Source: a virus. From it: a DNA stretch of 53,142 nucleotides. The stretch lies in the IMG/VR virus record IMGVR_UViG_3300034682_000455, positions 1 through 53,142 of that record; one strand, given 5' to 3'. Positions 19,149-49,854 of this stretch are shown here, piece after piece (within the stretch, counting starts at the first letter, position 1; each line of letters begins with the position of its first letter). The translations under genes and the position numbers were made by a program. Below the pieces are notes generated by a model, which worked only from the letters and a program-made list of their open reading frames with translations, was not told the DNA's origin and made no database searches.

Positions 19149-19164
19149 CCCCCACTAGGGTTCG
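19149..19164 (+). promoter_or_regulatory. Late-block motif, copy 1
   Basis: CCCCCACTAGGGTTCG, ending 33 nt before the small terminase start codon. The G pair of the consensus core GGCTAGGG is replaced (CACTAGGG). It follows the counter-oriented membrane gene. Confidence 0.6.
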
Positions 19165-19197
19165 CTCCTGAGAAGCATCCTCGGAACACTCCGGGGC

Positions 19198-19878
19198 ATG
19201 GCAAGCAGTACAGGCAAAGCACCCACCCCCACAAAGCCCCAGGTTGACTGGGAGCGCATCGCGCTGGACTACCGGGCAGCAATCAAGACGCTGCGCCAGA
19301 TCGCTGACGAGCACGGCATCTCGCATGGCGCCATCAACAAGCGCGCCAAGCGTGATGGATGGGAGCGCGACCTGACGGAAAAGATCCAGGCCAAGGCTGA
19401 TGCGCTGGTATCCAAGGCTGCAGTATCCAAGACGGTATCCAAAGAAGGGCGAGCGGCTGAGACCGCTGTCATCGAGGCCAACGCCCAGACGCAAGCCAGC
19501 ATCCGCCTGGCGCACCGCGCCGACATCGATCGCACCCGACGCCTGTGCATGCGCATGCTGGCAGAGCTGGAGCAGCAGAGCGCCGCGCCCGAGCTGCTGG
19601 GCGAGGTGGCCGAGATCCTGGCCGGCGTCCCGCCGGAGGAGATGACCAAGGCCCAGCGCGCGAAGCTGGCCGACGCCGCCGCCCGTGCGGGATCGCTGCA
19701 GTCCCGCTCCAGCACCATGCGGTCCCTGTCCGAATCGCTCAAGAGCTTGGTTGCCCTGGAGCGCCAGGCCTATGGCATCAAGGAGGAGGCCGCGCCGCCG
19801 CCAGACCCTGGTGTGGCCTCTTTCTCGACCGCTGACCTTTTTGCGATGCGCGATGCGCTCAAGAAGGGAGCCGCATGA
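19198..19878 (+). CDS. Terminase small subunit
   Basis: The 226-residue protein has an N-terminal helix-turn-helix of the terminase small-subunit type: WERIALDYRAAIKTLRQIAD, EHGISHGAINKRAKRDGWER. A helical oligomerisation region follows. It should recognise the packaging site and present DNA to the large subunit. Its stop overlaps the start of the large terminase gene (ATGA). It is the first gene after late motif 1. The ribosome site is weak (CCGGGGC). Confidence 0.85.
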   Translation: MASSTGKAPTPTKPQVDWERIALDYRAAIKTLRQIADEHGISHGAINKRAKRDGWERDLTEKIQAKADALVSKAAVSKTVSKEGRAAETAVIEANAQTQASIRLAHRADIDRTRRLCMRMLAELEQQSAAPELLGEVAEILAGVPPEEMTKAQRAKLADAAARAGSLQSRSSTMRSLSESLKSLVALERQAYGIKEEAAPPPDPGVASFSTADLFAMRDALKKGAA

Positions 19879-20618
19879 ACGTCGACAACCTCTCACCCGC
19901 CCAGCGTGAAGCCATGCTGGCCTCCATCGAACTGGAGCTGTCCCGCCGCAAGATCGACAGCATGTACCCGGACACCGGGCCGCTGCGCCGCGAGCTGTAC
20001 CCCAAGCACATGGAGTTCTTCAAGGCCGGCGCCACCTACCGCGAGCGCTGCGCAATGGCGGCCAACCGCGTGGGCAAGACCGAGGGCATGGGCGGCTACG
20101 AAACCGCGCTGCACCTGACAGGCCGTTACCCGGAATGGTGGGAAGGGCGCCGCTTTGACCGGCCCGTGCGCTTCTGGGCTGCCGGCAAGACCAACGAAAC
20201 CACCCGCGACATCGTGCAGAACAAGCTGTTCGGCCCGGTGGTGGGCTCGGGCACGTCCAAGTGCTTCAGCGGCACCGGCCTGGTGTACGCCGACTGCATC
20301 GAGCGCGTGGGCTGGAAGCAGGGCGTGACCGACCTGGCCGACACCGTGTACGTCAAGCACGTCAGCGGCAAGTTCTCCGAGCTGGGCCTGAAGTCTTACC
20401 AACAGGGCCGGGGCAGCTTTGAAGGCACCGAGCGTGACGGCATCTGGCTGGACGAGGAGCCGCCGCTGGAGGTCTACAGCGAGTGCCTGATTCGCACGGC
20501 CACCACCAACGGCATCGTGTACATCACCTTCACCCCCCTGGAGGGCACCACCGGCACGGTGATGATGTTCCTGGAGGGCGAGCAGGAAGCCAAGGAGGAG
20601 CCACTGTGCCTGCAGTAA
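19875..20618 (+). CDS. Terminase large subunit, ATPase half (frame 1)
   Basis: The 247-residue product has the packaging ATPase motifs: a Walker A in CAMAANRVGKTEGMGG (about 58-73) and a Walker B in GIWLDEEPPLEVYSECLI (about 197-214), then a coupling motif in IVYITFTPLEGTTG. It stops at 20618 after QEAKEEPLCLQ. Large terminases are normally a single protein of about 450-550 residues. The nuclease half is in the next frame (-1) and starts inside this gene, so the protein is split or frameshifted. As it stands it would lack the nuclease domain. Confidence 0.85.
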   Translation: MNVDNLSPAQREAMLASIELELSRRKIDSMYPDTGPLRRELYPKHMEFFKAGATYRERCAMAANRVGKTEGMGGYETALHLTGRYPEWWEGRRFDRPVRFWAAGKTNETTRDIVQNKLFGPVVGSGTSKCFSGTGLVYADCIERVGWKQGVTDLADTVYVKHVSGKFSELGLKSYQQGRGSFEGTERDGIWLDEEPPLEVYSECLIRTATTNGIVYITFTPLEGTTGTVMMFLEGEQEAKEEPLCLQ

Positions 20619-21370
20619 GCGCATTCCGCTACCTGGTGACCGCCGGCTGGGACGATGTGCCCCACCTGGACGAAAAGACCAAAAAGGAGCTGTGGGCCAG
20701 CTCGCCCCCGCATGAGCGCGAGGCCCGTGCCAAGGGCATCCCGACGCTGGGCAGTGGCCGCATCTTCCCCGTGGAAGAGAACAGCATCAAGGTGCCGGCG
20801 TTTGCCGTGCCGCCGCACTGGGCCCGCATCAACGGTATCGACTTCGGCTGGGACCACCCGACCGCAGCGGTGCAGCTGGCCTGGGACCGGGACAACGACT
20901 GCATCTACGTGATCCAGGCGCACCGGCTGAGCCACGCCACGCCGGTGATCCATGCCTCCACCATCAAGCCCTGGGGCGACTGGGTGCCCACGGCCTGGCC
21001 GCACGACGGGGAGCAGCACGACAAGGGCTCTGGCGAGCAGCTGGCGCTGCAGTACGCCAAGGCTGGTTTGAAGATGCTCAAGCACCGCGCCACGTTTGAA
21101 GATGGCTCCAACGGTGTGGAGGCCGGCCTGATTGACATGCTGGACCGCATGCAGACCGGGCGCTGGAAGGTGTTTGCCCACCTGGGCGACTGGTTCCAGG
21201 AGTTCAAGCTGTACCACCGCAAGGACGGCAAGGTCGTCAAGAAGCTGGACGACTTGATGAGCGCAAGCCGCTACGCCTTGATGATGAAGCGCAAGGCCAT
21301 CACCCAGCCCAAGCCGCAGCGCCCGATAACCGGTGGCTGGGCGCCGCTGGATCAAGAAATGGGGTACTGA
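20606..21370 (+). CDS. Terminase large subunit, nuclease half (frame 2)
   Basis: The 254-residue product starts at GUG 20606 with AAGGAGGAG 5 nt upstream and reads MPAVSAFRYLVTAGWDDVPH. It continues with KGIPTLGSGRIFPVEENSIK, the RNase H-like nuclease start INGIDFGWDHPTAAVQLAW, then FEDGSNGVEAGLIDMLDRMQ and the acidic KKLDDLMSASRYALMM, the usual order of the terminase nuclease domain. The first catalytic Asp is in GIDFGW. A good ribosome site suggests that the two halves can be made as separate chains. A single-base loss in an ancestral fused gene is the alternative. Confidence 0.85.
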   Translation: MPAVSAFRYLVTAGWDDVPHLDEKTKKELWASSPPHEREARAKGIPTLGSGRIFPVEENSIKVPAFAVPPHWARINGIDFGWDHPTAAVQLAWDRDNDCIYVIQAHRLSHATPVIHASTIKPWGDWVPTAWPHDGEQHDKGSGEQLALQYAKAGLKMLKHRATFEDGSNGVEAGLIDMLDRMQTGRWKVFAHLGDWFQEFKLYHRKDGKVVKKLDDLMSASRYALMMKRKAITQPKPQRPITGGWAPLDQEMGY

Positions 21371-21371
21371 A

Positions 21372-23582: not shown

Positions 23583-23601
23583 TCGACTCACCCCACCTTC
23601 C

Positions 23602-23639
23602 AGCCCTCCTGGTGCACAGCCTGGAGGGCTTGTTTTATT
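23602..23639 (+). terminator. Terminator after the portal gene
   Basis: AGCCCTCC (23602-23609) pairs with GGAGGGCT (23623-23630), followed by TGTTTTATT. Motif copy 2 comes 16 nt later, so the next block needs a new start or antitermination. Confidence 0.75.
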
Positions 23640-23654
23640 GGGGAGCGCGGCACG

Positions 23655-23672
23655 CCCCCGGCTAGGGATTCG
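23655..23672 (+). promoter_or_regulatory. Late-block motif, copy 2
   Basis: CCCCCGGCTAGGGATTCG, ending 33 nt before the start codon at 23705 and directly after the portal terminator. Confidence 0.65.
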
Positions 23673-23704
23673 TCTTTGTGGCGCCAAGCCAGAAACTGCC
23701 AGCC

Positions 23705-26494: not shown

Positions 26495-27145
26495 ATGAAG
26501 CTCAAAGACCTGATCGCGCTGTACCGGGCGCAGTCGTGCGACAACGCGGATCCTCCGCTGTGCAGTCCCGAGCTGCTGACCCTGTATGCCAACGAGGCCC
26601 AGGCGGAAGCCTGCAGGCGCAGCCACCTGTTGCTGGATTCAGAAGGCAGCATGTGCCGCCTGCAGGTGACGGCTGGCCAGCGCAGCGTTCCTTTGGCGCC
26701 CGGTGTGCTGATGATCCGGCGTGCATTTCTGGGCCTGCAGCCGCTGGAGAGCACATCCGCAGACTGGATGGATGGCACGTTTCCGGGCTGGCAAGCGCAG
26801 GTGCGTGTCGGTACACCGCTGTATTTGGTCAGTGGCCTGGACAGCGCCAAGTTGCACCTGTACCCACTGCCGCAGCAGGACGGCACCATCGAGCTGACAG
26901 TGAGCCGCCTACCGGCATTGCTTGAAGGTGAAGACAGCGTTCCCGAGATTCGGGAGGAGCTTCACCCAGCGCTGGTCGACTGGATGCTGTACCGCGTCTA
27001 CAGCAGCCAGGACACGGACCTGTACAACGACGCCAAGGCAGCGATTGCACTCAGGCGCTTTGAAGCCGAGTTCGGCCGCAAGACGAGTGGGCGCAACGAG
27101 CAGTGGCAGCGGGTGGCACAGGCGATGCCCGGTCCAATTGTGTGA
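26495..27145 (+). CDS. Head-tail adaptor protein
   Basis: The 216-residue protein starts MKLKDLIALYRAQSCDNADP and has LYANEAQAEACRRSHLLLDS, MCRLQVTAGQRSVPLAPGVL, then LHLYPLPQQDGTIELTVSRL and EIREELHPALVDWMLYRVYS. This order (helices, a beta sandwich, and IxxxxHxALVDWxLYRAY) matches phage adaptor proteins placed between portal and tail. It should bridge the portal ring and tail. Its stop codon TGA is the beginning of motif copy 3. Confidence 0.75.
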   Translation: MKLKDLIALYRAQSCDNADPPLCSPELLTLYANEAQAEACRRSHLLLDSEGSMCRLQVTAGQRSVPLAPGVLMIRRAFLGLQPLESTSADWMDGTFPGWQAQVRVGTPLYLVSGLDSAKLHLYPLPQQDGTIELTVSRLPALLEGEDSVPEIREELHPALVDWMLYRVYSSQDTDLYNDAKAAIALRRFEAEFGRKTSGRNEQWQRVAQAMPGPIV

Positions 27146-27161
27146 CCCCGGCTAAGGTTCG
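27145..27161 (+). promoter_or_regulatory. Late-block motif, copy 3
   Basis: ACCCCGGCTAAGGTTCG, starting in the stop codon of the adaptor gene. A terminator hairpin lies downstream, before the next start codon. Confidence 0.65.
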
Positions 27162-27188
27162 CGGATAGGTGGACGTTCCAATGAAATC

Positions 27189-27213
27189 AAGGCTCCCGAT
27201 GTGGAGCCTTTTT
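27189..27213 (+). terminator. Terminator between motif 3 and the 91-residue gene
   Basis: AAGGCTCC (27189-27196) and GGAGCCTT (27203-27210) form an 8-bp stem with a 6-nt loop and a TTTTT tail. It lies after the motif and before the gene it would serve. Confidence 0.75.
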
Positions 27214-27712: not shown

Positions 27713-29194
27713 TTAATGAAGTTTTACGTAGCTAGTGCTTTCACTTTTTGGATAAACGGCGAACTGTTCGACCAACTTGGCACTTCTTGCATCTAGCCCT
27801 CGCACTTCGACCTTTGTTCCGCCGCGTCGTAGTTTGAACACTACCCGGTCAAGTGCCTCAACTGAGGTCAAATCCCAAAACTGAGTCTGGCTCACATCAA
27901 TACAGATGCGCTCCACCTGTTCAAGGTAGTCAAACCTAGCAATAAAGCTTTCAGAAGAGGCAAAAAATACTTGCCCAGAAACAAAATAGGTACGTTGTTT
28001 ACCGTCTGGGCTGAGGCTTGAGGTGACATCCAAAATACGGCGCACCTTGTGTGCAAAGAACACACCAGACAGAAGAACGCCAGTCAGCACTCCCTTGGCC
28101 AAGTCATGGGTTGCAACAGTCACAACGACGGTAGCGAGCATCACAACGCTGGATGTTTTGGGGTGGGCAACCAAGTCCTTGATAGAGCGCCAGTTGAAGG
28201 TGCCAATCGACACCATGATCATCACGGCGACCAAGGCGGCCATGGGAATCTGCTTCACCAAATCGCCAAGAAACACAACCAATATCAGCAACACTACACC
28301 TGCGGTCAGCGTAGACAAACGCCCACGCCCCCCAGACTTCACGTTAATGACCGACTGACCAATCATGGCGCATCCGGCCATACCACCCACAAAACCTGTA
28401 GCAACGTTGGCGATACCTTGGCCGACGCATTCACGGTCTTTGTTACTCGTAGTGTCTGTCATGTCATCCACGATGGTGGCCGTCATGAGCGATTCCAGCA
28501 GGCCCACGACACACAGGGTGGCGGAATACGGCAGGATGATTTGGAGCGTCTCCCAAGTGAAGGGGACATTGGGAATGAAGAAGCTCGGCAGGCTATCAGG
28601 GAGTGCGCCCATATCGCCAACCGTGCGAATGTCTAGACCGAGAACCACATAAGCGATGCTTAAAACAATGATGGCAACCAAAGGCGAAGGAACGGCTTTG
28701 GTGATGTAGGGCAAGCCATAAATGATGGCAAGCCCTGCAGCCGTCATCGCATAGACATGCCAAGTGACATTGGTCAGCTCCGGCAGTTGAGCCATAAAAA
28801 TCAATATGGCCAATGCATTCACAAAGCCCGTCACCACGGAACGAGAGACAAACTGCATGAGCTGGCCCAAGCGTAAGAAGCCTGCCAGCATTTGGAGCAC
28901 ACCAGCAAGAATGGTGGCAGCTAGCAAATAGTCCAGTCCATGCTCTTTTACCAGCGTCACCATCACTAAGGCCATAGCGCCGGTAGCGGCTGAAATCATG
29001 CCAGGCCGCCCGCCAACAAAAGCAATAAGTGTGGCAATCGCAAAGGAGGCATACAGACCCACCTTGGGGTCAACGCCAGCAATGATGGAAAAAGCAATGG
29101 CCTCCGGAATAAGTGCCAAGGCAACAACGACGCCCGCCAGCAAATCGCCACGGACATTAGAGAACCATACGGTTCTGATTTTTTCAATAGACAT
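27713..29194 (-). CDS. SulP-family anion (sulfate-type) transporter with STAS domain
   Basis: The 493-residue membrane protein has the SulP core in about residues 1-380: [40 protein letters not shown] with [19 protein letters not shown], and [20 protein letters not shown]. These are the SulP signature segments, with 10 or more membrane helices. A STAS domain is at the C-terminus (about 400-490: [20 protein letters not shown]). SulP proteins carry sulfate, bicarbonate or other anions; the substrate cannot be read from sequence. GAGGGTGG precedes AUG 29194. The gene runs against the late operon, is more A/T-rich than its neighbours and is unrelated to virions, so it is cargo from a bacterial chromosome. 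Confidence 0.93.
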
Positions 29195-29559
29195 AGGTAT
29201 ACCACCCTCAGCATAGAGGGGCAGAACGCACCAAAGCAACCTGCATGAAGGGCAGGAGTAGGCGCAATGAAAACGCGAGCAAGCCTATAGCTCTAGCTAC
29301 AGGCAAGACGAACAGGTGGGGCAAGAAGTAAAGCGTTCTTGCTGCGCTGGTGCCCAGATTAGGGCGGAGTGACGGAGCGGAAGCGTCCGCGAGGCAGGGC
29401 TGCGCCCCGGTAATCAACCGGTTGTTGCGTGAAGTGAGCAAGAGCAGCCATCGCAAGAATTTTAACTAGAAAAAACACATCCACACGATGAGCTTTAAGG
29501 ACTCCAAAGGGTCGATTCCTGTCGGTCAAATAGCTAGAGTTTGCTGAAGCCTGGGCAAG
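29195..29559. other. Gene-free flank between the SulP gene and motif 4
   Basis: I see no credible gene here. There are scattered dyads (CGGA / TCCG around 29372-29390 and ACCGGT at 29418-29423), A/T-rich stretches and no clear transposon ends. It is probably chromosomal DNA that came with the SulP gene, including its promoter. No direct or inverted repeat was found that marks the insertion. Confidence 0.4.
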
Positions 29560-29575
29560 CCCCCGCTAAGGCTTG
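29560..29575 (+). promoter_or_regulatory. Late-block motif, copy 4
   Basis: CCCCCGCTAAGGCTTG, a divergent copy lacking one G of the core, 56 nt before the start codon at 29632. It lies inside a dyad AAGCCT / AGGCTT. Confidence 0.45.
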
Positions 29576-29631
29576 GGCTCGTGGTTGCTGTTGCGCGAGA
29601 CTGCACCTCAAGCAACCAATGAGGTACCCCC

Positions 29632-30942: not shown

Positions 30943-30965
30943 AACCCGCTTCGGCGGGTTTTTTT
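30943..30965 (+). terminator. Terminator before the giant virion gene
   Basis: AACCCGC and GCGGGTT form a 7-bp stem closed by TTCG, with seven T. Motif copy 5 begins 3 nt later. Confidence 0.85.
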
Positions 30966-30967: not shown

Positions 30968-30984
30968 ACCCCGGCTGGGGTTCG
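30968..30984 (+). promoter_or_regulatory. Late-block motif, copy 5
   Basis: ACCCCGGCTGGGGTTCG, ending 32 nt before the start codon at 31017. In this copy ACCCC and GGGGT form a 5-bp hairpin around GGCT. Confidence 0.65.
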
Positions 30985-31016
30985 CGCGTATGGATGGCGC
31001 TGGGCAAAGTGGGTGC

Positions 31017-34000
31017 ATGAGCACACAGAACCCCTTTGCAGATCCCAATTTTGGGCGCAGTGATGCACCGGTGAATGGGCAGCCTTCAGCCAGCAATCCG
31101 TTTGCAGACCCTGACTTTGGCAAGGCACCAGCCACCCCCAGGCGCTCCCTCCTGGCCGCCATCAACGACACCGTGATTGAAGGCGCCAACGCGGCAGCCG
31201 GCACTGCATCAGCGGTTGCTAACTTTGTGCGTCCTGGCAATGCTGCCTCGCAGTGGATCGATAAGAACATTGTCGAGGCCGGCGAAGCCGCGCAGTCCGA
31301 TGTGGTCAAGGCCGAGAAGGCGCGCTACAGCCAGGAAATGCAGGACGCCGATGGAATGGGCGGCGAGGTCGGGGCCACGCTGGGCTACGTGGCGCGCAAT
31401 CCGTTGCTGGCGGCGGCACAGGGTGCAGGCTCCTTTGCCACCCCGGGCGTGGCCATCAAGGGGGCAACCGCTGGGGCGCGTGCCCTGGGCCTGGGCACTA
31501 AGGGCACGACCCGGGCTGGCTTGGCTGCTGGCGCGGGTGTCGGGGCGGCTGGCGCCGGCGGCGATGCCGCGGGCACGGCCTACGAACTGTCCCGGGAAGG
31601 CGGGGCCACCGACGAGCAGGCCCTGGCAGCCGGCCGCAGTGCCAGCGTGCTGCCAGGCCTGATCGGCGCGGCCGGCGGCCTAGTGGGGGCGGAGCGCCTG
31701 GTGGCCGGCGCCGGAGGTTTTAAGGGCGGTCTGGTGGCCCGGGCCCTGAAGACTGGCGCCGTGGAGGGTGCTCAGGAGGCCCTGGAAGAAGGCGTGACCC
31801 AGTACGAGGGCCAGCGCGCGGCCGTTCCGTTCAATCCTGAGTTGGACCCCATGAAGGGCGTGGCCGGCGCCGCCACCATGGGTGCCGTGCTGGGCGGCAT
31901 GACCGGTGCTGGTGCTTCGGTGCTGACACCTTCGCAGCACCTGGGCATCGATCGCGCCAACGGTCCTTTGTCGAGAGTGGCAGCTGACGCCGTAGACAGC
32001 GCCCCCGCCGCAGAGCCTGCGCCAGAGCAGCCGCCAACACCGCTGCAGCTGGCCTACAACCCCGACCCCATGATTGTGTTCCCCGATGGAACCACGGGCA
32101 CGCGGGCTCAGCTGGACGCCTACATCGAAGGCTTGCCAGAAGACCAGCGGATTGCCGCACGCGCCCGCTTGATGGGGATGGCGCCGCAAGCGGCTGACTC
32201 GCACTTGCCGCCAGAAGGCTGGCAGGAGCAGTACCAGGACCAGCCGGTGCGCGAGCTGCCACCGGTGGCCAACCCGCTGGCCGATATGCAGCAAGCCGTG
32301 CGCGAAGCCACCGACTACACGGACGCCGGCAAAGTGGAGGCGGTGCGTGGCGAGTTGGAGGATGCCTGGCTGGCGCTGAACGTGGGGGAGGCCCAGCCGG
32401 TGGCCGCCGGCCAGGCCAGCAACGAAGCCCAAGCCCCCCAGGATGCCGACCCTGCCGACCTGACTACAGAAACGAATGCCCGCCTGCGCGCTGGCCGTGT
32501 GGCCAGTGGCGTGCGCAATGCATTCGACGGTGGGGCACCCAACACCTTGCGCGTGATCCAGCACGTGAACCAGGGGCTGCGCACGATTGGTGAGCAGCCG
32601 CTGACATCCCCAGAAATCGCCCGCATCCGCCGCCTGGCCGACGCCCGCACAGCGTTCGCAGGCCTGAACCAACGCGCCGATTTGCCTGCGGATCCAGCTC
32701 CGGCCGTCGATGCGAATGCCGACAACAGCGCCATGGAGGCGCTGATTCCCGAGCGCCCCGCGCTGCAGCCGGCCATGGAGCAGGGCACGCCCGGTGGCGC
32801 TGCAGCCCCGGCGCAGCGCACACCAGCCGGCAATGCTGACATCGCAGGGGATCGTGTCGGTGGCGAGTGGGTGGCATTTGGCCCCAGCTCCGGCACCTTG
32901 GGTGTCCCACGTGCCCGGATGCCCCAGGTCGATGCCGCACACCGTGGCGCCCTGGTCAATTACCTCAAGGGCCAGGGTATCGCCAGCGAGCAGGCCGAAG
33001 TGCCCGCTAACAGCCTGAAGCCGACCCAAGCGGAATTCTCTGAAGCCAAGGTGCGCAAGGCATCCAAGCGCACCGGCGGTGACCGCGCCATCTTGGTGTC
33101 GTCGGACGGCTACGTGGTGGACGGCCACCACCAGTGGCTGGCCAAGCGCCAGGACGGCCAGCCCGTGAAGGTCTTGCAGCTGCAGGCGCCCATTTCCCAA
33201 TTGTTGCCCCTGGTGGGCGACTTCCCCAGCGCCCGCACCGCAGAAGGTGCGCAGGCCACTTCCCAAGGACAGCCAAGCAATGGTCCCGCCACGCCTCTCA
33301 ACGATGAATCGCAAGCAGCAGCGCCGGATGCGCCGCAAGTTCAAACGCCAGGGTCTGCAGTCCCCCAGCAAGAAGGGGTAGCCGATGCCACGCAAACCAC
33401 TCAAGCCCAGCAGATTGGCGCGCAGCCTCAAGCGCAAGCAGCAGCGGGAGCACAAAGCGCAGAACCGCCGTCCGCACCGCAATTGGATGTCGCGCCAGGC
33501 GTAGCACGCAAGCGCACGGCCGGAGACAACGCCCGCAGCCGCAGCTATGACGCCAATCCCATGCGCGCATTCTTGGGCAAGCATGGAGTGTCATTGAACA
33601 GTCGCAGCGAGTTCGCCCCAGGCCTGCAAGAACTGCGCGGCACCATGGTTCCAGGCTATGGGCCTGTGTTTCGCAAAACAGGCAAACCCCTGGACTTGCT
33701 GGTGCACAACGCCATCGAAGAAGGTTTTTTGCCAGAAGGTGCCACGGATGCCGATCTGTACGAACTGATCGACCGTGCGGTGCGTCGCAGCGAGCGGGTG
33801 GACCCCATGTTCACTGCCGATGCGGCAGAGCAGCAGATGCGTGCAATGTTCGACCGTGAAGCCCAGCTGCAAATGGAGGCACAGCAGGCCATTGACGAAG
33901 AGGTGGCCGCTTACGAGGCGGTCCTTGCACAAGAGCTGGCAGACACGTACAGTGCACAGGAGCTGGAAGCGATTGACGCGGCAATTCCTTTTGATGCACC

Positions 34001-37000
34001 CAGCAATGTGAGCACAGCGGCAGCGATGCGTGCCCTGGGTTTTTCAGATCAGGAGATTGAAGATGCAATCCGCAACGAACGACAACAAGCGCAGCCAGCA
34101 AGCACAGGCCCTGGCCAAACTGATGGCACTCGCACCGGCAGCCCGCAAACGGGTGCTGGAGCAGGCCAAGGCATTGAAAGCACAGGCCAAGAGCTAAGCA
34201 CCTACACCCGCGAGGAGGTACTGGCGCGCCAAGCAGCGCAGTCCCTTTCGCAAGCGGAGCAGGCCAAAGCGGACCGCGAAGCCGAGCTCCGCGACCAGGC
34301 AGAGCGCAATCAGCGCGAGATCCAAGCACGCCAAGCAGCCAGCGCCGAGAATTTCCAACTGGGTCAAGACCCCATGGCTGGACTGTCGGGGCAGACCAGT
34401 ATCTTTGATGCCCCAGCGCAGCCAGAGGGGCAGGCCGAGCCAGCCAAACCCGCGCCCACCCCAAAGACAGCCGATACCTCACGCCCAGCGCAGCGCATCG
34501 AGGATGTGGGCGAAAAAATCGGTGGTGCCCGCAAGGATGTGTGGTCTGGCTTCCGTGACGACATCGGCGCCGTGCCGGACGATGCGATTGCCGAGCAGCC
34601 CCTGTCCAAGGTCTGGCCACAGCCGGATTACCAGAAGCTGATTGATGCCGGCCACGATGCCGGCACGGTGGCCATGGTGCGCTCGCTGCGCGATGCCATC
34701 CCTACCAAGCCCCGCCAGAGCTTCAAGGTCCACCGCTGGGCAGCGCAGGTCAAGGAGCTGCGCGCCTTTGCGCTGGAGATGCTGGACGGCCAGATGCCGC
34801 ACCAGAAGCTGCGCACGGAACTTCTGAAGGCTGGCAGCCGGGATCTGCGTGGCATTGCAGGTCGGGCGGAGCTGTACGAGGCGGTGGGCCATGGCCAGAG
34901 CCTTGAGGGGATTACCTTCGGCGAGCACTTCTACACGCTCTACAAAGGCAAACCCAACGTTACGCTGTGGGCTGTGGAGCAGGCAGCCAATAGCAGCAGC
35001 TTTGGCAACTGGCCCCGTGAGCTGGCCACCGGCGACACCAAGGAGCAGGCGCTGGAGGCGTTCAAGAAGCTGCATGCCAACCAGGCCAAGCAAGAAGCCA
35101 AGGCCAATGTGCCCAGCTTTGACATTTGGTCCACTCGCCGCACGGGTGAGATTCATGTGGGCAAGAAGATCGGCCGCAACTACGCCGAGCTGGCCGGCCC
35201 GTTCAAGACCGTGCGTGAAGCCCGCGAGTACCGCGACCAGAACTTGGACGCGCTGACCACCAAGCTGGAGAAGTACAAAGAGGTTCCGGTGGAGCGCGCC
35301 GACACCAACCGGCCCCGCGTCGGCCAGGACATGCGCCAAGGCCTGGATGTGACCCCCGAGCAGTTCCGCGAGGCCTTCGGCTTCCGGGGCGTGGAGTTTG
35401 GCAACTGGGTGGAGCAGGGCCGCCGCCAGCAGGATCTCAACGATGCGTTCGACGCGCTCATGGACATGGCAGCAGTCTTGCAGCTGCCACCCAAGGCCAT
35501 TTCCCTGAATGGCGAGCTGGGCCTGGCCTTTGGCGCCCGGGGGGCTGGCGGCAAGAATCCGGCGGCTGCCCATTACGAGCGAGGCAAGGTGGTGATCAAC
35601 CTGACCAAGAAGTCGGGCGCCGGCAGCCTGGGCCATGAGTGGTGGCATGCCGTGGACAACTACTTTGCCCGTATGCGCGGCCAGGCCGATGACATGTTGA
35701 CGGAAGCCAGCGATGTAAGCGTGCTCTCCCGTGGCCCAGCCAAGACGTTTGCCCCGAATGCGAATGTTCGGCCGGAGATGGTCCAAGCGTTTGCCGAGGT
35801 CATCAAAGCCATCAACAACACCAGTTTGCGTGCCCGCGCCGCGGTGCTGGATGCCCGCCGTGCCAAGGAATACTGGGGCACTGACCCCGAACTGAGCGCC
35901 CGCGCCTTCGAGAGCTACCTGATAGCCAAGCTGGAAGACCAGAACGCCAGCAACGATTACCTGGCCAACGTGGTGGACGAGCAATTCTGGGAGGCGCAGG
36001 CCGCCCTGGGCATGCGGCTGGAAGGCAGCTACCCCTATGCCAAGGCCGGCGAGGTGCCTGCCATCCGCGCCGCCTTTGATCATTTCTTCCACACGGTGGA
36101 AACCAAGGAGACGGACAAGGGCGTGGCCATGTTCAGCCGGACAGAGCGCCCGGCCGTCTTCAACACCACGGCAGTCCAGATGCGCCGGGCCATGGTGCAG
36201 CGCACGGTCGGCAGCTTGACCCAGGGCTGGGGCCAGAGCCCCCGCATCACGGTGGTCGACAGCATGAATGACCCGCGCGTGCCCGAGGCTGTGCGCGAGG
36301 CCGACCAGGCGCAGCGCTCCCAGGGCGCCACCGGCGAGCCCGAAGGCTTCTGGTATCAGGGGCAGGTGTACCTGGTGGCCAGTGCGCTGCCTACTTCAGC
36401 GGATGCCACCCGGGTGCTGTATCACGAGGTGCTGGGCCACCATGGTCTGCGGGGGCGGTTTGGCGCCGAGCTGGACAAGGTGCTGGATCAGGTCGCCAAG
36501 CTGCGCCCCAAGGACGTGGCCGCGAAGGCGTCAGAGTACGGCCTGGACATGGGCAATCCTGATCACGTGGCCTATGCCGCCGAGGAAGTGCTGGCCGAAC
36601 TGGCCCAGACCCGCCCTGACCTGGGTTTTGTGCAGCGCGCGATTGCTGCGATCCGCAATTTCCTGCGCAGCCATGTGCCAGGCTTCAAGGCGCTGGAGTT
36701 GACCGATGCCGACATCGTGCAGGGCTATCTGCTGCCAGCGCGTGGCTGGGTGGAGCGTGGATCTCCTGCAGAGGCTTCAGGTGCGGCAGAGCCCGCGTTT
36801 GCACGTCATCCTGGGTTCAGTGCCGCCGTGGATGCAGCGATCAAAGCCGGCCAGCTGGGCGAGGTTGGTAACGGGCAGCACATTGAAATTGCGACCTTGC
36901 CGACTGCATTGTCCGCCGCAGGGATTCCTGAAGGCAATCTGAGAACTTCTGCCAAAGTGCTGCAGAAGGTGGTGTTCGATCATGGCGTGACGCCAAGCGT

Positions 37001-39917
37001 TCTCAAGCGCTTACCCGAACTGCTGGAAACACCGGTTATGGTGCTGCGCTCTGACTCCGTGGATGGGCGCTTTGTGGTGGTGACTTCTGAGATGGTGCGC
37101 GGTTCGCCGCTGGTGGTGGCCATCAGCCCGGAGGTGACGCGCGGGAATGTGGCGCTGAATTTTGTGCCGAGCCTGTATCCCAAGGAGGACTTGAAGGCTA
37201 TCCAGCGATGGCTGAATGGAGGGCGAGACGGCAAGCGGTTGCTGGCGTATCTGGACCAAAAGCAAAGCCCTGAGTGGTTCGGGTCAACAGGGCTCCAATT
37301 GCCAAGCGAATACCGCACCACCCAGGGCTTGCAAGCTCGAAATGTAGCCACACAGGCCGATGCTGTCAATGACGCGCCCCCAGGGCAGGCCATGTTCAGC
37401 CGCTCCCAGCCAGCAGACGCCATCCGCTCCAGCATGGGCAGCCTGACGGCCGACCAGGAGCGGGCCTACCTGGCCGTGGCCGGGTATGACAAAGTGCCCA
37501 CGCTGCGCGAGCGATTCGATCAGCTGCGCGCCAACCTGGGCCTGCGCATGAAGCAGGCGATGGTCGACCAGTTCGCCCCGATTGCGCAGCTGGACCAGAA
37601 CGCCTACATGCTGGCGCGCATGTCCAAGGGCAGCGACGGCACCCTGGAGGCAGCGTTGCTGTACGGCCGCCCGTTCCTGCGCGATGGCGTGCCGGATGTG
37701 GACGTGAAAGAGGGCGGCTTTGCCAAGGTGCTGGCCGGCCTGCAGGGTGAGCACGACCGCTTCCTGATGCACGTGGCGGCCCAGCGCGCAGAAAACCTCA
37801 AGGCCCAGGGCAAGGAGAACTTGTTCAGCGATCAGGACATCACCAGCCTGAAGACGCTCAACGATGGGCTGATGCCGGACGGCAGCAGCCGCAAGCAGGC
37901 CTATGCCAAGGCCCTGGCCCAGCTCAACAGCTTCAACGAGAGCGTGCTGCGCATAGCCAAGGAATCCGGGCTGATTGATCAGGACGCCTACGACCTGATG
38001 CGCGACCAGCCCTATGTGCCCTTCTACCGCCTGATGGAGGAAGAGGGCGGCCTGCAGGGGCCCAGCTTCTCCAAGGGGCTGACCAACCAGAAGGCCTGGA
38101 AGAAGCTCAAGGGCGGAACCGAGCAGCTCAATGCCGACTTGCTGCAGAACATGCTGCTCAACTGGGGCAATCTGTACGCCGCATCGGCCCGCAACCGCGC
38201 CGCGCTGGCCACCATGGATGCGGCCGACAAAATGGCCGTGGCCTACAAGGTGCCCAGCGACACCAAGGGCGCTGCCAAGGTGATGCGCGACGGGGTGACC
38301 GAGCACTGGATGGTGGAGGATCCCTACCTGCTGGAGGCCATCAGCGCGCTGAACTACCAGGCCAGCCCCCTGATGAAGCCGCTGGCCAAGGCCAAGCAGT
38401 GGCTGACCTGGGGCGTGACGGTGAACCCCACCTTCAAGGTGCGCAACCTGATCCGTGATGTGGTGTCCTCGATGGCCATGGCTGATCTGAGCTACAACCC
38501 GGCGGCCAACGTCGCCAATGGCTGGAAGCTGACGGCGCGCGATTCGCAGGTCTATGCCTCGATGCTGGCTTCCGGCGGCGTGATCAAGTTCGGCACGCAA
38601 GAGCAAACCGACCGCGCCCGCAAGCAGGTGGCCAAGCTGTCTGGCGTGATGCTGGACCAGAACGGTGCCCAGAAGTTGTGGTCGCAGGTCAAGGCGCTGT
38701 ACGCGGTCTATGACGAATTTGGTGACCGGACCGAGAACATCAACCGCGCGGCCCTCTATGACCGGCTGATCGCCAAGGGCCACAACCATGCCGAAGCCAG
38801 TTTCATGGCGCGCGACCTGATGGACTTCTCCATGGGCGGCAGTGCGCCTGTGGTGCGCTTCCTGACGCAATCGGTGCCATTCCTCAATGCCCGCCTACAG
38901 GGGCTGTACAAGCTCGGCCGCTCCGCCAAGGAAGATCCCCGCCGCTTCGCCACCGTGGCCATGGCGGTGAGCATGGCATCGCTGGGGCTGCTGGCGGCCT
39001 ATGCGGACGACGAGGACTGGAAGCGCCGCGAGGACTGGGACCGCGACAGCTACTGGTGGTTCAAGATCGGCGAAACCGCCTACCGGATTCCCAAGCCGTT
39101 TGAGGTGGGCGCCATCGGCACGCTGGCCGAGCGCACGGCCGAGGCGATGTTCAGCGAGGAGATGGACAGCAAGCGGTTCATGGAACGCATCAGCCACATG
39201 GTCAGCCAGACCTTTGCGTTTGACCCGATGCCCCAGGCGTTCAAGCCCCTGCTGGACATTTACGCCAACAAGGACAGCTTCACCGGCCGCGCGATCGAAA
39301 GCCAGGCCGACCAGCGGCTGCGCCCGGAGGACCGCTACAACGAGCGGACCTCGGAAGCGGCACGTTTCCTGGGCCAGGTGGGTTTGCCAGACCCCGCCCG
39401 ACTGATGAAGGGCGAGTATGCCGGCTTGAGCCCCAAGCAGATCGACCACCTGCTGCGTGGCTACTTCTCATGGATGGCCACGGCATCCACGGTGGCCACC
39501 GACATGTTGCTGCGCAACACCGTGGTGGATCGTGGCGAAAGCCCGGCAATGCGCCTGAAGGACGTGTTCCTGGTGGGCAACTTTGCCGAGGGCCTGCCAA
39601 CGGGCAGCAGCCGCTATGTCACCGCCATGTACGAGCAGTCCAAGTCGGTGGAGCAGGCCTATGCTGCGTACCGCGATGCGCTGGCCTCTGGCGACCATGC
39701 CAAGGCGAGCGAGATCATGGACAGCAGTGGTGAACTGATCCGCAGCCGCGGGGCCGTGAACACGGCCACCAAGCTGCTGGCGCAGCTCAACAGCCAAGCC
39801 AAGCGGGTGCAGGCTGACACGAACATGAGTTCGGACGAGAAGCGGGAGCGTTTGACGCGGATTGAGCAGCGCCGGCATGAGATCGCCAAGCGGGTGATGG
39901 GCAGCTCGGCTACTTGA
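31017..39917 (+). CDS. Giant polyvalent virion protein (2966 residues) with two HExxH domains
   Basis: The protein begins with two NPFADPxFG units, then a Gly/Ala-rich hydrophobic part (about 50-310). Around 640-745 is a ParB-like segment (RAILVSSDGYVVDGHHQWLA). About 1180-1400 has features of polyvalent-protein domains, followed at about 1440-1600 by an LPD1-like domain (FGFRGVEFGNWVEQG, LGLAFGARG) with the zinc motif HEWWH at 1540-1544. A second metalloprotease motif HEVLGH lies at 1803-1808. About 1940-2105 resembles a BECR-type phage nuclease or MuF-C domain (VMVLRSDSVDGRFVVVTSEM, less certain). The rest (about 2130-2966) has an LPD38-like helical part. It is probably ejected with DNA and acts in the host cell. 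Motif 5 serves it. Confidence 0.75.
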   Translation: MSTQNPFADPNFGRSDAPVNGQPSASNPFADPDFGKAPATPRRSLLAAINDTVIEGANAAAGTASAVANFVRPGNAASQWIDKNIVEAGEAAQSDVVKAEKARYSQEMQDADGMGGEVGATLGYVARNPLLAAAQGAGSFATPGVAIKGATAGARALGLGTKGTTRAGLAAGAGVGAAGAGGDAAGTAYELSREGGATDEQALAAGRSASVLPGLIGAAGGLVGAERLVAGAGGFKGGLVARALKTGAVEGAQEALEEGVTQYEGQRAAVPFNPELDPMKGVAGAATMGAVLGGMTGAGASVLTPSQHLGIDRANGPLSRVAADAVDSAPAAEPAPEQPPTPLQLAYNPDPMIVFPDGTTGTRAQLDAYIEGLPEDQRIAARARLMGMAPQAADSHLPPEGWQEQYQDQPVRELPPVANPLADMQQAVREATDYTDAGKVEAVRGELEDAWLALNVGEAQPVAAGQASNEAQAPQDADPADLTTETNARLRAGRVASGVRNAFDGGAPNTLRVIQHVNQGLRTIGEQPLTSPEIARIRRLADARTAFAGLNQRADLPADPAPAVDANADNSAMEALIPERPALQPAMEQGTPGGAAAPAQRTPAGNADIAGDRVGGEWVAFGPSSGTLGVPRARMPQVDAAHRGALVNYLKGQGIASEQAEVPANSLKPTQAEFSEAKVRKASKRTGGDRAILVSSDGYVVDGHHQWLAKRQDGQPVKVLQLQAPISQLLPLVGDFPSARTAEGAQATSQGQPSNGPATPLNDESQAAAPDAPQVQTPGSAVPQQEGVADATQTTQAQQIGAQPQAQAAAGAQSAEPPSAPQLDVAPGVARKRTAGDNARSRSYDANPMRAFLGKHGVSLNSRSEFAPGLQELRGTMVPGYGPVFRKTGKPLDLLVHNAIEEGFLPEGATDADLYELIDRAVRRSERVDPMFTADAAEQQMRAMFDREAQLQMEAQQAIDEEVAAYEAVLAQELADTYSAQELEAIDAAIPFDAPSNVSTAAAMRALGFSDQEIEDAIRNERQQAQPASTGPGQTDGTRTGSPQTGAGAGQGIESTGQELSTYTREEVLARQAAQSLSQAEQAKADREAELRDQAERNQREIQARQAASAENFQLGQDPMAGLSGQTSIFDAPAQPEGQAEPAKPAPTPKTADTSRPAQRIEDVGEKIGGARKDVWSGFRDDIGAVPDDAIAEQPLSKVWPQPDYQKLIDAGHDAGTVAMVRSLRDAIPTKPRQSFKVHRWAAQVKELRAFALEMLDGQMPHQKLRTELLKAGSRDLRGIAGRAELYEAVGHGQSLEGITFGEHFYTLYKGKPNVTLWAVEQAANSSSFGNWPRELATGDTKEQALEAFKKLHANQAKQEAKANVPSFDIWSTRRTGEIHVGKKIGRNYAELAGPFKTVREAREYRDQNLDALTTKLEKYKEVPVERADTNRPRVGQDMRQGLDVTPEQFREAFGFRGVEFGNWVEQGRRQQDLNDAFDALMDMAAVLQLPPKAISLNGELGLAFGARGAGGKNPAAAHYERGKVVINLTKKSGAGSLGHEWWHAVDNYFARMRGQADDMLTEASDVSVLSRGPAKTFAPNANVRPEMVQAFAEVIKAINNTSLRARAAVLDARRAKEYWGTDPELSARAFESYLIAKLEDQNASNDYLANVVDEQFWEAQAALGMRLEGSYPYAKAGEVPAIRAAFDHFFHTVETKETDKGVAMFSRTERPAVFNTTAVQMRRAMVQRTVGSLTQGWGQSPRITVVDSMNDPRVPEAVREADQAQRSQGATGEPEGFWYQGQVYLVASALPTSADATRVLYHEVLGHHGLRGRFGAELDKVLDQVAKLRPKDVAAKASEYGLDMGNPDHVAYAAEEVLAELAQTRPDLGFVQRAIAAIRNFLRSHVPGFKALELTDADIVQGYLLPARGWVERGSPAEASGAAEPAFARHPGFSAAVDAAIKAGQLGEVGNGQHIEIATLPTALSAAGIPEGNLRTSAKVLQKVVFDHGVTPSVLKRLPELLETPVMVLRSDSVDGRFVVVTSEMVRGSPLVVAISPEVTRGNVALNFVPSLYPKEDLKAIQRWLNGGRDGKRLLAYLDQKQSPEWFGSTGLQLPSEYRTTQGLQARNVATQADAVNDAPPGQAMFSRSQPADAIRSSMGSLTADQERAYLAVAGYDKVPTLRERFDQLRANLGLRMKQAMVDQFAPIAQLDQNAYMLARMSKGSDGTLEAALLYGRPFLRDGVPDVDVKEGGFAKVLAGLQGEHDRFLMHVAAQRAENLKAQGKENLFSDQDITSLKTLNDGLMPDGSSRKQAYAKALAQLNSFNESVLRIAKESGLIDQDAYDLMRDQPYVPFYRLMEEEGGLQGPSFSKGLTNQKAWKKLKGGTEQLNADLLQNMLLNWGNLYAASARNRAALATMDAADKMAVAYKVPSDTKGAAKVMRDGVTEHWMVEDPYLLEAISALNYQASPLMKPLAKAKQWLTWGVTVNPTFKVRNLIRDVVSSMAMADLSYNPAANVANGWKLTARDSQVYASMLASGGVIKFGTQEQTDRARKQVAKLSGVMLDQNGAQKLWSQVKALYAVYDEFGDRTENINRAALYDRLIAKGHNHAEASFMARDLMDFSMGGSAPVVRFLTQSVPFLNARLQGLYKLGRSAKEDPRRFATVAMAVSMASLGLLAAYADDEDWKRREDWDRDSYWWFKIGETAYRIPKPFEVGAIGTLAERTAEAMFSEEMDSKRFMERISHMVSQTFAFDPMPQAFKPLLDIYANKDSFTGRAIESQADQRLRPEDRYNERTSEAARFLGQVGLPDPARLMKGEYAGLSPKQIDHLLRGYFSWMATASTVATDMLLRNTVVDRGESPAMRLKDVFLVGNFAEGLPTGSSRYVTAMYEQSKSVEQAYAAYRDALASGDHAKASEIMDSSGELIRSRGAVNTATKLLAQLNSQAKRVQADTNMSSDEKRERLTRIEQRRHEIAKRVMGSSAT

Positions 39918-40368: not shown

Positions 40369-41448
40369 CTATCCTTTCTTTACTGGGCGGCGGATCAACA
40401 CAACAACCAGCGTCACGACCGTCAGCGGTACGACGAAGCTGAGCATGACGCCCGAGAATGCTGGCAGCGCATCGTGCTGCTGCGCGGCCATGATCAAGTA
40501 AGCCACGTATGCGACGTAGTAGCCCAGAAAGACCCCGCCTTCCCAGCGAGCGATCTCGCGACCAGTCATGAACACGGGGAGGCAGGCAAACGACACTGCC
40601 ACCATGACCCAGATGTCAAAGGCCAGCAGCGATGGAGCCATGTCCAACCCCAGGTCACCCGACACTAGGCCCGAGACACCCAGGCAGCCCAGAATGTTGA
40701 AGGTATTGCTTCCCACCACATTGCCTACTGCGATGTCCCGTTCGCCCTTGATGACTGCGGCGATGCTGGTGGCAACCTCGGGCATGCTGGTACCAGCGGC
40801 AACGATGGTCAGCCCAATGATCAGGTCGCTCACACCCATGGCCTTTGCGAAACTCACCGATGCTTGCACTAGGTACTCGGAGCCGAACACTAACGCAGCT
40901 AGGCCAGCGGCAATCAGCAGCAACTGAACCAGCAACCGATCGTCCCAGGCGCCGGGGGCAGAGGGTTTGATCTCACCCGCGTATTCGTCCTTGGCGAGCT
41001 GGGTTTCGCGCCGTGACTGCACGATCAGGAACACTGTGTAAGACACCAGCAGCACGAAGAGAAAACCGCCATCGAAAAACGAAAGTTGACCGTCCAACCC
41101 CAAGGCGAGCAAGAGAAAACATGCACCGATCATGATCGGTACCTCCTGGCGTATCAGCTGAATGTTGACCACCAGCGGTGCAATCAACGCGCTGATGCCA
41201 AGGATGAACAGAACGTTGAATATGTTGCTGCCCACCACGTTGCCAATGGCAATGTCGGTTTTCCCATCGAGCACGGCCCCCACGCTGACTGCAACCTCGG
41301 GTGCGCTTGTGCCGAGCGCAACGATCGTCAGTCCCACGACCAGCGGACTGATGCCAAACGACAGGGCCAGCTTGGAAGAGCCTCGCACCAACAAGCTGGC
41401 ACCCATGACCAGCAAGAAAAGCCCGCCGAGAAATAGAAGGATGTTCAT
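40369..41448 (-). CDS. Calcium/sodium antiporter (CaCA family, YrbG-like)
   Basis: The 359-residue protein has two inverted halves, each with the alpha-repeat motif: GTSAPEVAVSVGAVLDGKTD with IAIGNVVGSNIFN in the first (about 47-80) and GTSMPEVATSIAAVIKGERD with IAVGNVVGSNTFN in the second. It has about ten membrane helices and is full length for bacterial CaCA exchangers. Such proteins move calcium out in exchange for sodium or protons. The gene runs against the late operon, between the giant virion gene and the tail genes. It has no virion role that I know and looks like bacterial cargo. The upstream ribosome site is unclear. Confidence 0.93.
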   Translation of the reverse strand: MNILLFLGGLFLLVMGASLLVRGSSKLALSFGISPLVVGLTIVALGTSAPEVAVSVGAVLDGKTDIAIGNVVGSNIFNVLFILGISALIAPLVVNIQLIRQEVPIMIGACFLLLALGLDGQLSFFDGGFLFVLLVSYTVFLIVQSRRETQLAKDEYAGEIKPSAPGAWDDRLLVQLLLIAAGLAALVFGSEYLVQASVSFAKAMGVSDLIIGLTIVAAGTSMPEVATSIAAVIKGERDIAVGNVVGSNTFNILGCLGVSGLVSGDLGLDMAPSLLAFDIWVMVAVSFACLPVFMTGREIARWEGGVFLGYYVAYVAYLIMAAQQHDALPAFSGVMLSFVVPLTVVTLVVVLIRRPVKKG

Positions 41449-41633: not shown

Positions 41634-41671
41634 AAGCCTCAACTGCGCATGCAGTTGGGGCTTCTTTGTTT
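41634..41671 (+). terminator. Terminator upstream of motif 6
   Basis: AAGCC-T-CAACTGC (41634-41646) pairs with GCAGTTG-G-GGCTT (41651-41663) around GCAT, followed by CTTTGTTT. Motif copy 6 begins 2 nt later. Confidence 0.75.
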
Positions 41672-41672
41672 C

Positions 41673-41687
41673 ACCCCGGCTAGGGGT
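41673..41687 (+). promoter_or_regulatory. Late-block motif, copy 6
   Basis: ACCCCGGCTAGGGGT, in which CACCCC and GGGGTG form a 6-bp hairpin around GGCTA. It lies 160 nt before the tail gene start at 41850. Confidence 0.65.
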
Positions 41688-41849
41688 GGCAGCAAGTGGC
41701 AGGCCTGGAGAGACTGGCGCCAGTTTCAGTAGGCCGGCCATTCCCATTTGCTTTTGGCGATCACTCCGCACGGATTGGTGGCTGCTGATTTTCCAAGTGC
41801 GCGGATCCTGGTCTGTGCACCTTCAGCAACCTCGTGAAGGAGTGCCACC

Positions 41850-47545: not shown

Positions 47546-47551
47546 ACTGAT

Positions 47552-47986
47552 ATGACCACCATCTGCATGAACACCCTCAATGGGGCAGTCACCGAGTTTG
47601 ACTGGAATTTTCAAAGCATCACCCCCACGCACGCCGGCGATGTGACCGGCCTGTATGCGCTGGGCGGCGATACCGATGCGGGCCGGCCGATTGACGCCAG
47701 CTTTATGACGCCATTGCTGCAGTGGCAGAGCAGCCTGCGCAAAGCCATGAGCGCGGTCTATTTCTCCATGTCCGGAGCGGGCGTGGGCAACTTGCATGTG
47801 CACGGCAAGGTGGGCCAGTGGGCCTATCCCTTCGCGGTGCGCGCTTCGGAGGTGTCCCGGGCTTCGCCGGGCCGCGGCATCTGCGAAAGCTACCTGGCCT
47901 TCGGCTTCAGCAACAAGGAAGGCGCGGCCTTCTCGATTGATGCCGTCGAGGTGGCCACCGTGGCATCCAACAACCGGAGGATCTGA
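47552..47986 (+). CDS. Hypothetical tail-region protein (144 residues)
   Basis: The protein starts MTTICMNTLNGAVTEFDWNF and contains THAGDVTGLYALGGDTDAGR, SMSGAGVGNLHVHGKVGQWA and GRGICESYLAFGFSNKEGAA. It is a compact beta-rich protein without a known domain. The gene follows the large tail gene by 6 nt and is followed by the coiled-coil gene after 2 nt. A structural role is likely from position only. Confidence 0.65.
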   Translation: MTTICMNTLNGAVTEFDWNFQSITPTHAGDVTGLYALGGDTDAGRPIDASFMTPLLQWQSSLRKAMSAVYFSMSGAGVGNLHVHGKVGQWAYPFAVRASEVSRASPGRGICESYLAFGFSNKEGAAFSIDAVEVATVASNNRRI

Positions 47987-47988
47987 AC

Positions 47989-49830
47989 ATGGCAACCAAC
48001 CCCCAAGACCTGCAAAGCGCGGCCGAGCTGGTCAACAGCACGTTTGCGCTGGCCAAGGACTATGCTGACGCGGCAGAGGCCAAGCTGACCACCTTCACCC
48101 AGGCCCTGGAAACGTCGATCTACGCGCCGCCCACGCTGAGTGTGACCTGGCAGACCATGGCACCGCCCACGCTGGAGCAAGCACCCGCGGCGCCGGCCAT
48201 GCCCAACATCGCCTACAACCCGGCGAACGTGGGGGGCACGCCCGCACCATTGGCCGAGGCCATCCCCGACATTGACATTCCCGAGTTCACGGACACCCTG
48301 CCGCCGCTGGTCTTTCCGGCCGCGCCGGCGATCAATTACGGGGTGGTGCCCACCGTCCCCGCGGTGGGCAATGTGCCGGTGCCCGCCGCCCCGAGCGTCA
48401 GCATGCCGGGCGCGCCCACGTTCCTGGAGCTCAAAGCCGTGGCTTTCAGCGGGGTGAATCTGCGCGAAGACTGGCTGGACAAGCTGCAAGACGCCCCCCA
48501 GCTGGAAATCCTGGCCCCCACGCCCTACAGCTACCAGCGGGGCCCCGAGTACGCATCGCAGCTGCTGGACAACCTGAAGGCGGTGCTCAACCGCCGCATC
48601 GCCGGCGGCAGCGGCCTGGCCCCGGCCGTGGAGCAGGCCCTGTGGGCGCGGGCCCGTGACCGCGAGGCCGCCATTGCCCGCACCGGGGAAACCGAGGTGC
48701 TGCGCTTGCATGAGGCCCGGGGCTTTGTGCTGCCCAGCGGGGTGATGGCCGAGCAGCTGCGCCAGGCCAACCGCGACTACCTGGGCAAGCTCAGTGACTT
48801 GAGCCGCGACATTTCGATCAAGCAGGCCGAGCTGGAGCAGCAGAACCTGCGCGAAGCGATTGCCCAGGGCATGCAGCTGGAGGCCCAGCTGATGGACTAC
48901 AGCTGGAAGATCGAGCAGCAGACGTTTGAAGCCGCCCGCCTGATGGCCGAGAACGCGATTGCGGTGCACAACGCGCAGCTCGAGCAGTTCAAGGCGCTGC
49001 TGCAGGGCTACGAATCGTATGCCAGCGTCTACAAGACCATCATCGAAAGCCAGCTGGCCAAGGTCGAGGTCTACAAGGCCCAGCTGGCGGCCGAGCAGTC
49101 CAAGGCGGACATCAACCGCTCCCTGGTCGAGCGCTACAAGGTGCAGATCGAGGCCGGCATGGCCGAGGTCGAGATTTACCGCGCCCAGGTGGCCGCAGCG
49201 CAGACCCTGGTGCAGCTGGAGCAAGCCAAGATCGGCGCCGCCGGCGAGCAGGTGCGCGCCTATGTGGCGCAGATGAACGCCGAGACTGCCAAGATGGAAA
49301 TCTACAAGTCGGGCGTGCAGGCGGAAGCCACCAAGGTGGAGGTGTTCAAGGCCCGCGGGGCGGTGTATTCCACCCAGGTGCAGGCCCAGGCTGAGAAGTC
49401 GCGCGCCCTGGTGTCGCGCTTTCAGGCGCTGGCCCAGGCCAAAAGCTCCGAGTGGGAGGGCTACCGTGCCCGGGTGGCGGCTGAAGGCCTGCGCCTGGAT
49501 GCGCTGGGCAAGCAGTCGGCGGCCATGCTGGACGCCTACCGGGTGGCGAATGCGGCCATCCAGTCCAAGGCCGAGCTGCAAACCAAGGTGTGGGAAACCA
49601 GCATGCGCCAGTACGAGGCCGGCATCCAGGTGTCGCTGCAGACCGCGCGCATGAACAACGAGGCCGTGATCGCCGCCAACAACGCCCGCGCCGACGCGGC
49701 CAAGGTCGGCACCCAGGTGTTTGCCCAGCTGACGGCATCGGCCATGAACATGATGCACACCAGCGCCGGGATCTCGGGTTCTGCCAGCCGCAACGAGAGC
49801 CACAGCTACAGCTACGAGGGCACATCCTGA
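47989..49830 (+). CDS. Long coiled-coil virion protein (613 residues)
   Basis: The N-terminal 150 residues are Pro/Ala-rich with repeated short hydrophobic units (APPTLSVTWQTMAPPTLEQA, FPAAPAINYGVVPTVPAVGN). The rest is almost all helical with long coiled coils in about 250-560, built of imperfect units such as AKVEVYKAQLAAEQSKADIN, MAEVEIYRAQVAAAQTLVQL and TKVEVFKARGAVYSTQVQAQ. The protein would form a rod, either a tail needle or an internal protein. AACCGGAGGATCTGAAC before AUG 47989 is a good ribosome site. Motif copy 7 begins 8 nt after the gene. Confidence 0.6.
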   Translation: MATNPQDLQSAAELVNSTFALAKDYADAAEAKLTTFTQALETSIYAPPTLSVTWQTMAPPTLEQAPAAPAMPNIAYNPANVGGTPAPLAEAIPDIDIPEFTDTLPPLVFPAAPAINYGVVPTVPAVGNVPVPAAPSVSMPGAPTFLELKAVAFSGVNLREDWLDKLQDAPQLEILAPTPYSYQRGPEYASQLLDNLKAVLNRRIAGGSGLAPAVEQALWARARDREAAIARTGETEVLRLHEARGFVLPSGVMAEQLRQANRDYLGKLSDLSRDISIKQAELEQQNLREAIAQGMQLEAQLMDYSWKIEQQTFEAARLMAENAIAVHNAQLEQFKALLQGYESYASVYKTIIESQLAKVEVYKAQLAAEQSKADINRSLVERYKVQIEAGMAEVEIYRAQVAAAQTLVQLEQAKIGAAGEQVRAYVAQMNAETAKMEIYKSGVQAEATKVEVFKARGAVYSTQVQAQAEKSRALVSRFQALAQAKSSEWEGYRARVAAEGLRLDALGKQSAAMLDAYRVANAAIQSKAELQTKVWETSMRQYEAGIQVSLQTARMNNEAVIAANNARADAAKVGTQVFAQLTASAMNMMHTSAGISGSASRNESHSYSYEGTS

Positions 49831-49837
49831 CCGTGTG

Positions 49838-49854
49838 ACCCCGGCTAGGGTTAT
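49838..49854 (+). promoter_or_regulatory. Late-block motif, copy 7
   Basis: ACCCCGGCTAGGGTTAT, the last two bases differing from the consensus. A terminator lies between it and the holin gene, as with copy 3. Confidence 0.65.

Follow-up and report, generated by a model that had tools for sequence, protein, structure and literature searches.

The GC-rich motif that occurs seven times in the window (the whole stretch of DNA that was analysed, a 53-kb virus record of 53,142 nucleotides) is, at each copy, one half of a two-part signal, and this signal is very likely the phage family's own late promoter. It is proposed, with a probability of about 0.75, that the seven sites are activator-dependent late promoters, which would be used by the host RNA polymerase with its main sigma factor, with the phage protein phrog_8117 bound at the first block of the signal, and which would give mostly leaderless mRNAs.

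The record encodes an integrase, RecE/RecT, a CI-type repressor, DnaB, terminase, portal, capsid and endolysin, together with a giant protein having LPD and MuF-C domains. Two cargo-like genes are located between late blocks, a sulfate permease/STAS protein (27713-29239, minus strand) and a sodium/calcium exchanger (40369-41448, minus strand). The right end of the record carries a gene for a DUF3732 protein (51424-52884, minus strand) with a match at E 9e-50 to LmuB from the Lamassu anti-phage system. The large terminase is encoded by two ORFs in the window (19875-21370) and, with about the same split, in genomes G007, G008, G010, G013, G015 and G019; it is a single ORF in G001, G005, G017 and G018. 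The split might represent a true two-part enzyme, a programmed frameshift or repeated decay.

In the alignment with relatives, the first block (Box 1) has the form CCC-N3-YAGGG-TTCG. It is followed by exactly 18 nt, mostly unconserved, and then by the second block (Box 2), GGnAnACT. The first-pass annotation had described the Box 1 copies as seven near-identical sequences in one orientation, three of which end 32-33 nt before a start codon. These positions and the shared orientation were borne out: all seven copies are on the late strand, many more than chance would give, and copies 1, 2 and 5 end 33, 32 and 32 nt before the ATG codons at 19198, 23705 and 31017, respectively. The second block 18 nt downstream, the coincidence of the start codon with the predicted transcription start and the conservation in dozens of related phages go beyond that annotation. 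The putative promoters and two associated features are as follows.

18233..18754 (+): candidate late activator phrog_8117, 173 aa, upstream of and next to terS; the corresponding gene of phage F116 is F116p37
19149..19191 (+): putative late promoter 1; Box 1 at 19149-19164, Box 2 GGAACACTC at 19183-19191; target terS, ATG 19198, with the predicted transcription start at or next to this ATG
23655..23698 (+): putative late promoter 2; Box 1 at 23655-23671 (GGGATTC), Box 2 CAGAAACTG at 23690-23698; target ATG 23705 of a 71-aa protein preceding the head genes; terminator-like hairpin at 23618-23630 upstream
27145..27188 (+): putative late promoter 3; Box 1 at 27145-27161, weak Box 2 AATGAAATC at 27180-27188 (hexamer TGAAAT); target ATG 27231 (91 aa), preceded by AGGAG
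27189..27210 (+): terminator-like hairpin, overlapping the predicted start of promoter 3
29560..29603 (+): putative late promoter 4; Box 1 TAAGGCTTGG, the most diverged copy and longer by one base; Box 2 GCGAGACTG at 29595-29603; target ATG 29632, preceded by GAGG
30968..31011 (+): putative late promoter 5; Box 1 at 30968-30984, Box 2 GGCAAAGTG at 31003-31011; target giant protein, ATG 31017; terminator at 30943-30960 immediately upstream
41673..41716 (+): putative late promoter 6; Box 1 at 41673-41689, Box 2 GAGAGACTG at 41708-41716; target ATG 41850, preceded by AAGGAG; terminator at 41634-41663 immediately upstream
49838..49881 (+): putative late promoter 7; Box 1 at 49838-49854, Box 2 GAGACACTG at 49873-49881; target holin-like gene, ATG 49946, after a hairpin and T-run at about 49907-49932

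A consensus search allowing up to three mismatches recovered six of the seven copies, all on the plus strand, and no other match (mean of 0.3 in shuffled sequence). When both strands were scored with a matrix derived from relatives, all seven copies were within the top eight positions of the window; the only other position among these eight, 25947 on the minus strand, is without Box 2. The late genes are free of internal copies, in line with the first-pass annotation, and the matrix hits were not inside genes.

Box 2 has the two bases characteristic of a sigma70-type −10 element. A-11 and T-7 are present at offset 20 in 89% of 136 dereplicated sites, which were picked by Box 1 alone, in comparison with 10% at the neighbouring offset and 0-4% at the others. 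In low-GC phages, the hexamer drifts, for example to TAACAT or GATCAT. With a Box 2 matrix built only from other phages, the single-site p values of six window copies are between 0.00004 and 0.003, and copy 3 is weak. Jointly, the seven copies outscore each of 500,000 random sets, also if the random positions may shift by one base. Judged from these sequence patterns, Box 2 behaves as a −10 element with the consensus NANACT, and would serve the polymerase as such.

The −35 region is poor. TTCGMC, located at a distance of 18 nt, agrees with TTGACA only in TT, and TTCG is altered in window copies 2 and 4. A plain sigma70 promoter scan gave no excess of hits and none at the sites, which is expected for activator-dependent promoters. 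If transcription is assumed to start 7 nt past Box 2, the centre of CCC-N5-GGG is near −42, in agreement with the class II operator position (−41.5). Box 1 is an imperfect dyad, and such a dyad near −42 matches a class II activator dimer, which would contact RNA polymerase. Box 1 would be the operator of a phage activator, adjoining the poor −35 element (TTCG).

The position of the start codons is closely tied to Box 2. Among the 71 sites with a nearby ATG, the distance from the last T of Box 2 to this ATG is 6-8 nt in 65, and 7 nt in 43. A gap of 6-8 nt is where host RNA polymerase is expected to begin. A Shine-Dalgarno four-mer is properly placed in only 2 of the 65 such genes, compared with 243 of 570 other ORFs, the starts of which are longest-ORF guesses. 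The start-codon position together with the absence of Shine-Dalgarno sequences argues for leaderless initiation at most late blocks, where transcription would begin at or next to the ATG. To our knowledge, it would be unusual for a proteobacterial phage to express its main virion genes from leaderless mRNAs. The sites without a nearby ATG mostly have, as judged by eye, a leader with an AGGAG-type sequence ahead of the next start; transcription of these blocks would start further upstream and give a short leader with a Shine-Dalgarno sequence. It should be mentioned that promoter 5 puts the start of the giant protein at ATG 31017 (2966 aa), within the longest ORF (30990-39917). The recorded start of terS in Pseudomonas phage F116 is also downstream of the ATG adjoining its site.

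A repeated motif in front of start codons is known from Cluster K mycobacteriophages. Their 13-bp Start Associated Sequences, GGGATAGGAGCCC, are located 3-7 bp from the start codon, mostly of non-structural genes, are nearly missing from host chromosomes and have a proposed role in translation (PMC3203893). The motif described here is likewise oriented, repeated and scarce in host chromosomes. However, it has two blocks and −10 character and is not accompanied by Shine-Dalgarno sequences, and Box 1 has another sequence, ending 32-33 nt before the start. Given the start-codon position and the scarcity of Shine-Dalgarno sequences described above, a function of the motif as a translation signal seems unlikely.

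The motif is kept by related phages. In 65 loci fetched via the capsid protein, plus the window, it recurs at matching gene boundaries, with 96 occurrences in the forward orientation and one in reverse. Most near-complete relatives have 4-7 sites per phage, all on one strand, and reversed controls give 0-1. Acidovorax phage AP1 also has the sites, Pseudomonas phage F116 has them in a more diverged form, and the source assemblies of the relatives are from Comamonas, Delftia, Curvibacter, Aquabacterium and Hydrogenophaga. Among nine host genomes, the strict pattern is missing in five and is confined to 1-2 contigs each in the remainder, prophage contigs included. A host regulon was rejected, since the sites are not scattered across host chromosomes. 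No published account of the motif was found in the searchable literature, to which subscription papers such as the F116 genome paper do not belong; the paper on the F116-like phage phiC725A does not mention promoters.

The most plausible ligand of Box 1 is encoded just upstream of terS. Among the non-structural genes of the window, phrog_8117 alone is shared by all motif-bearing genomes and missing from the four motif-free genomes (G018, G020, G021 and MW202426). This includes phage 8P, whose fetched stretch stopped short of phrog_8117 and whose copy was found by a separate search. Several structural genes share this presence pattern, and the motif-free side of the comparison consists of four genomes only. 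A survey seeded with this protein rather than with the capsid protein gave 50 dereplicated relatives. Of these, 39 are followed by a complete two-part site no more than 3 kb downstream (0 in reversed and antisense controls); the other 11 have no scoring site within the stretch searched. The AlphaFold2 model of phrog_8117 (mean pLDDT 83) combines a winged helix with three strands and a helix of 65 residues. In a fold search, only the N-terminal domain was matched, by generic winged-helix structures and never at E <= 0.001, and no Mor/C or Ogr zinc-finger domain was matched in Pfam at E <= 1. The fold and the linkage suggest that phrog_8117 might bind DNA, most likely at Box 1, and it is likely to be the activator of the late promoters.

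The C-terminus of phrog_8117 is also of interest. It ends in a QVALL tail in the window, and in QMDLL, QLDLL, QMSLI, QLALL, QVALPL and the like in relatives. The consensus for binding to the beta clamp is QLxLF, usually at the C-terminus (PMC4549789). Of the 50 relatives, 21 have a strict clamp-like tail (0.4% of other coding-like ORFs do) and 34 have a loose one (background 4.8%). It is conceivable, although we hold this only tentatively, that the QxxLL tail tethers the activator to the host beta clamp and thereby couples late transcription, with its mostly leaderless virion mRNAs, to replication.

The tail would also fit a replication protein. The same promoters might depend on another factor, such as an as yet unrecognised sigma factor of phage or host origin or some other regulator; phrog_8117 would then have another role, for example as a clamp-bound replication or recombination accessory. 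Such an assignment would be compatible with the presence pattern that phrog_8117 has in common with structural genes, and DNA binding by this protein is itself deduced from its fold and linkage. On the other hand, its linkage to adjacent sites in 39 of the 50 dereplicated relatives speaks against this reading, a Sigma70_r2 protein is absent from 14 phage records (the control was positive in 10 genomes), and the sites in host genomes are limited to few contigs. Dependence on another factor seems rather unlikely. A phage sigma factor in particular was rejected, as none was found with Sigma70_r2 in the 14 records.

The preferred reading, that phrog_8117 activates host RNA polymerase at these sites, is also consistent with the arrangement of terminators. 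Copies 2, 5 and 6 are directly downstream of terminator-like hairpins, and terminators between several blocks mean that those blocks would have to restart from their own promoter. The hairpin at promoter 3 is kept in relatives (L008, L043 and L065), with a pair change in one. Because it overlaps the predicted start, incoming transcripts would end there, whereas the RNA of promoter 3 would be without most of the 5' arm. By its predicted position, this hairpin could halt incoming but not outgoing transcripts. At copy 7, a hairpin with a T-run is located between the promoter and the holin gene, so that readthrough would be needed; this hairpin is not accounted for by the promoter model.

The terminator-like hairpins that follow copies 3 and 7 would be in keeping with an antitermination or RNA element, in which the motif acts within the transcript as a loading site or a structured leader. 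The hairpins noted earlier at copies 5 and 6 would point in the same direction: these copies can indeed fold short ones, but a conserved feature they are not. The stem pair −13/−7 is a C-A mismatch in 13 of 136 sites, with C kept and no compensation, and an RNA hairpin was rejected on this absence of covariation. In addition, the −10 character of Box 2 at a single offset and the coincidence of the predicted transcription start with start codons speak against action within the transcript, and Rfam gave no match, which makes an RNA element quite improbable. The promoter was therefore selected over the antitermination site and RNA element also offered by the first-pass annotation, since the fixed 18-nt link to a −10 element, the start codons without Shine-Dalgarno sequences, the sites following terminators and the restriction to one strand all favour it.

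A promoter for a phage single-subunit RNA polymerase, with the start at GGG, has very little probability. CACTAGGG has a superficial resemblance to T7-class promoters. Box 2 and the position of the start codons would be left unexplained, however, and no RNA polymerase is present among the scanned window proteins; a dedicated Pfam search for a single-subunit polymerase gave 0 matches, but its control was likewise silent. Finally, a module-boundary sequence retained for recombination between phages, with no role in expression, would explain why the sites recur at the same module boundaries across phages, but a pair of short blocks set at a constant distance across unconserved sequence, the −10 pattern and the start geometry indicate a promoter rather than homology and make this explanation hardly credible.

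The proposed mechanism, in which host RNA polymerase with its main sigma factor would read all seven late promoters, resembles known late regulons. The late promoters of phage Mu, of which there are several, have poor −10 and −35 elements and are read by host RNA polymerase, and each has a site for the activator C next to or over the −35 (PMC4461284). The promoters described here are similar in their multiplicity, the poor −35, the activator site near it and the proposed use of host RNA polymerase. They differ in the operator and the activator, the candidate having no Mor/C domain, as well as in the mostly leaderless starts and the clamp-like tail. In P2 and 186, a multi-promoter late regulon is controlled by one small phage activator (Ogr/B); Ogr has a zinc finger and binds near −55. 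A multi-promoter late regulon with a single small phage activator, here a candidate, is common to both, whereas the candidate has a winged helix and the operator is near −42. Because the operator and the activator family differ and the defining domains are absent, the system is not filed under Mu C or P2 Ogr.

T4 late transcription involves gp55, gp33 and the gp45 clamp, that is, the phage's own clamp and a sigma-like factor, which act at a simple −10-type late promoter (PMC2988020), and its late regulators carry C-terminal clamp-binding segments (PMC2988020). A late regulator, here a candidate, whose C-terminus resembles a clamp-binding segment, with a possible coupling to replication, would be the point of likeness. 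The present system differs in having an operator near −42, no sigma domain in the 14 records and at most the host clamp. Possibly, though with less than even odds, it is a temperate-phage counterpart of clamp-activated late transcription in T4, achieved via a sequence-specific DNA binder and the host clamp.

These results provide a readable late-promoter code for a large and little-studied group of temperate phages (prophages from Comamonas, Delftia and their relatives, as well as Acidovorax phage AP1 and Pseudomonas phage F116). The code corrects gene starts, and a single candidate master regulator, phrog_8117, is named. If the clamp tail works, replication-coupled late transcription would have evolved outside the T4 family.
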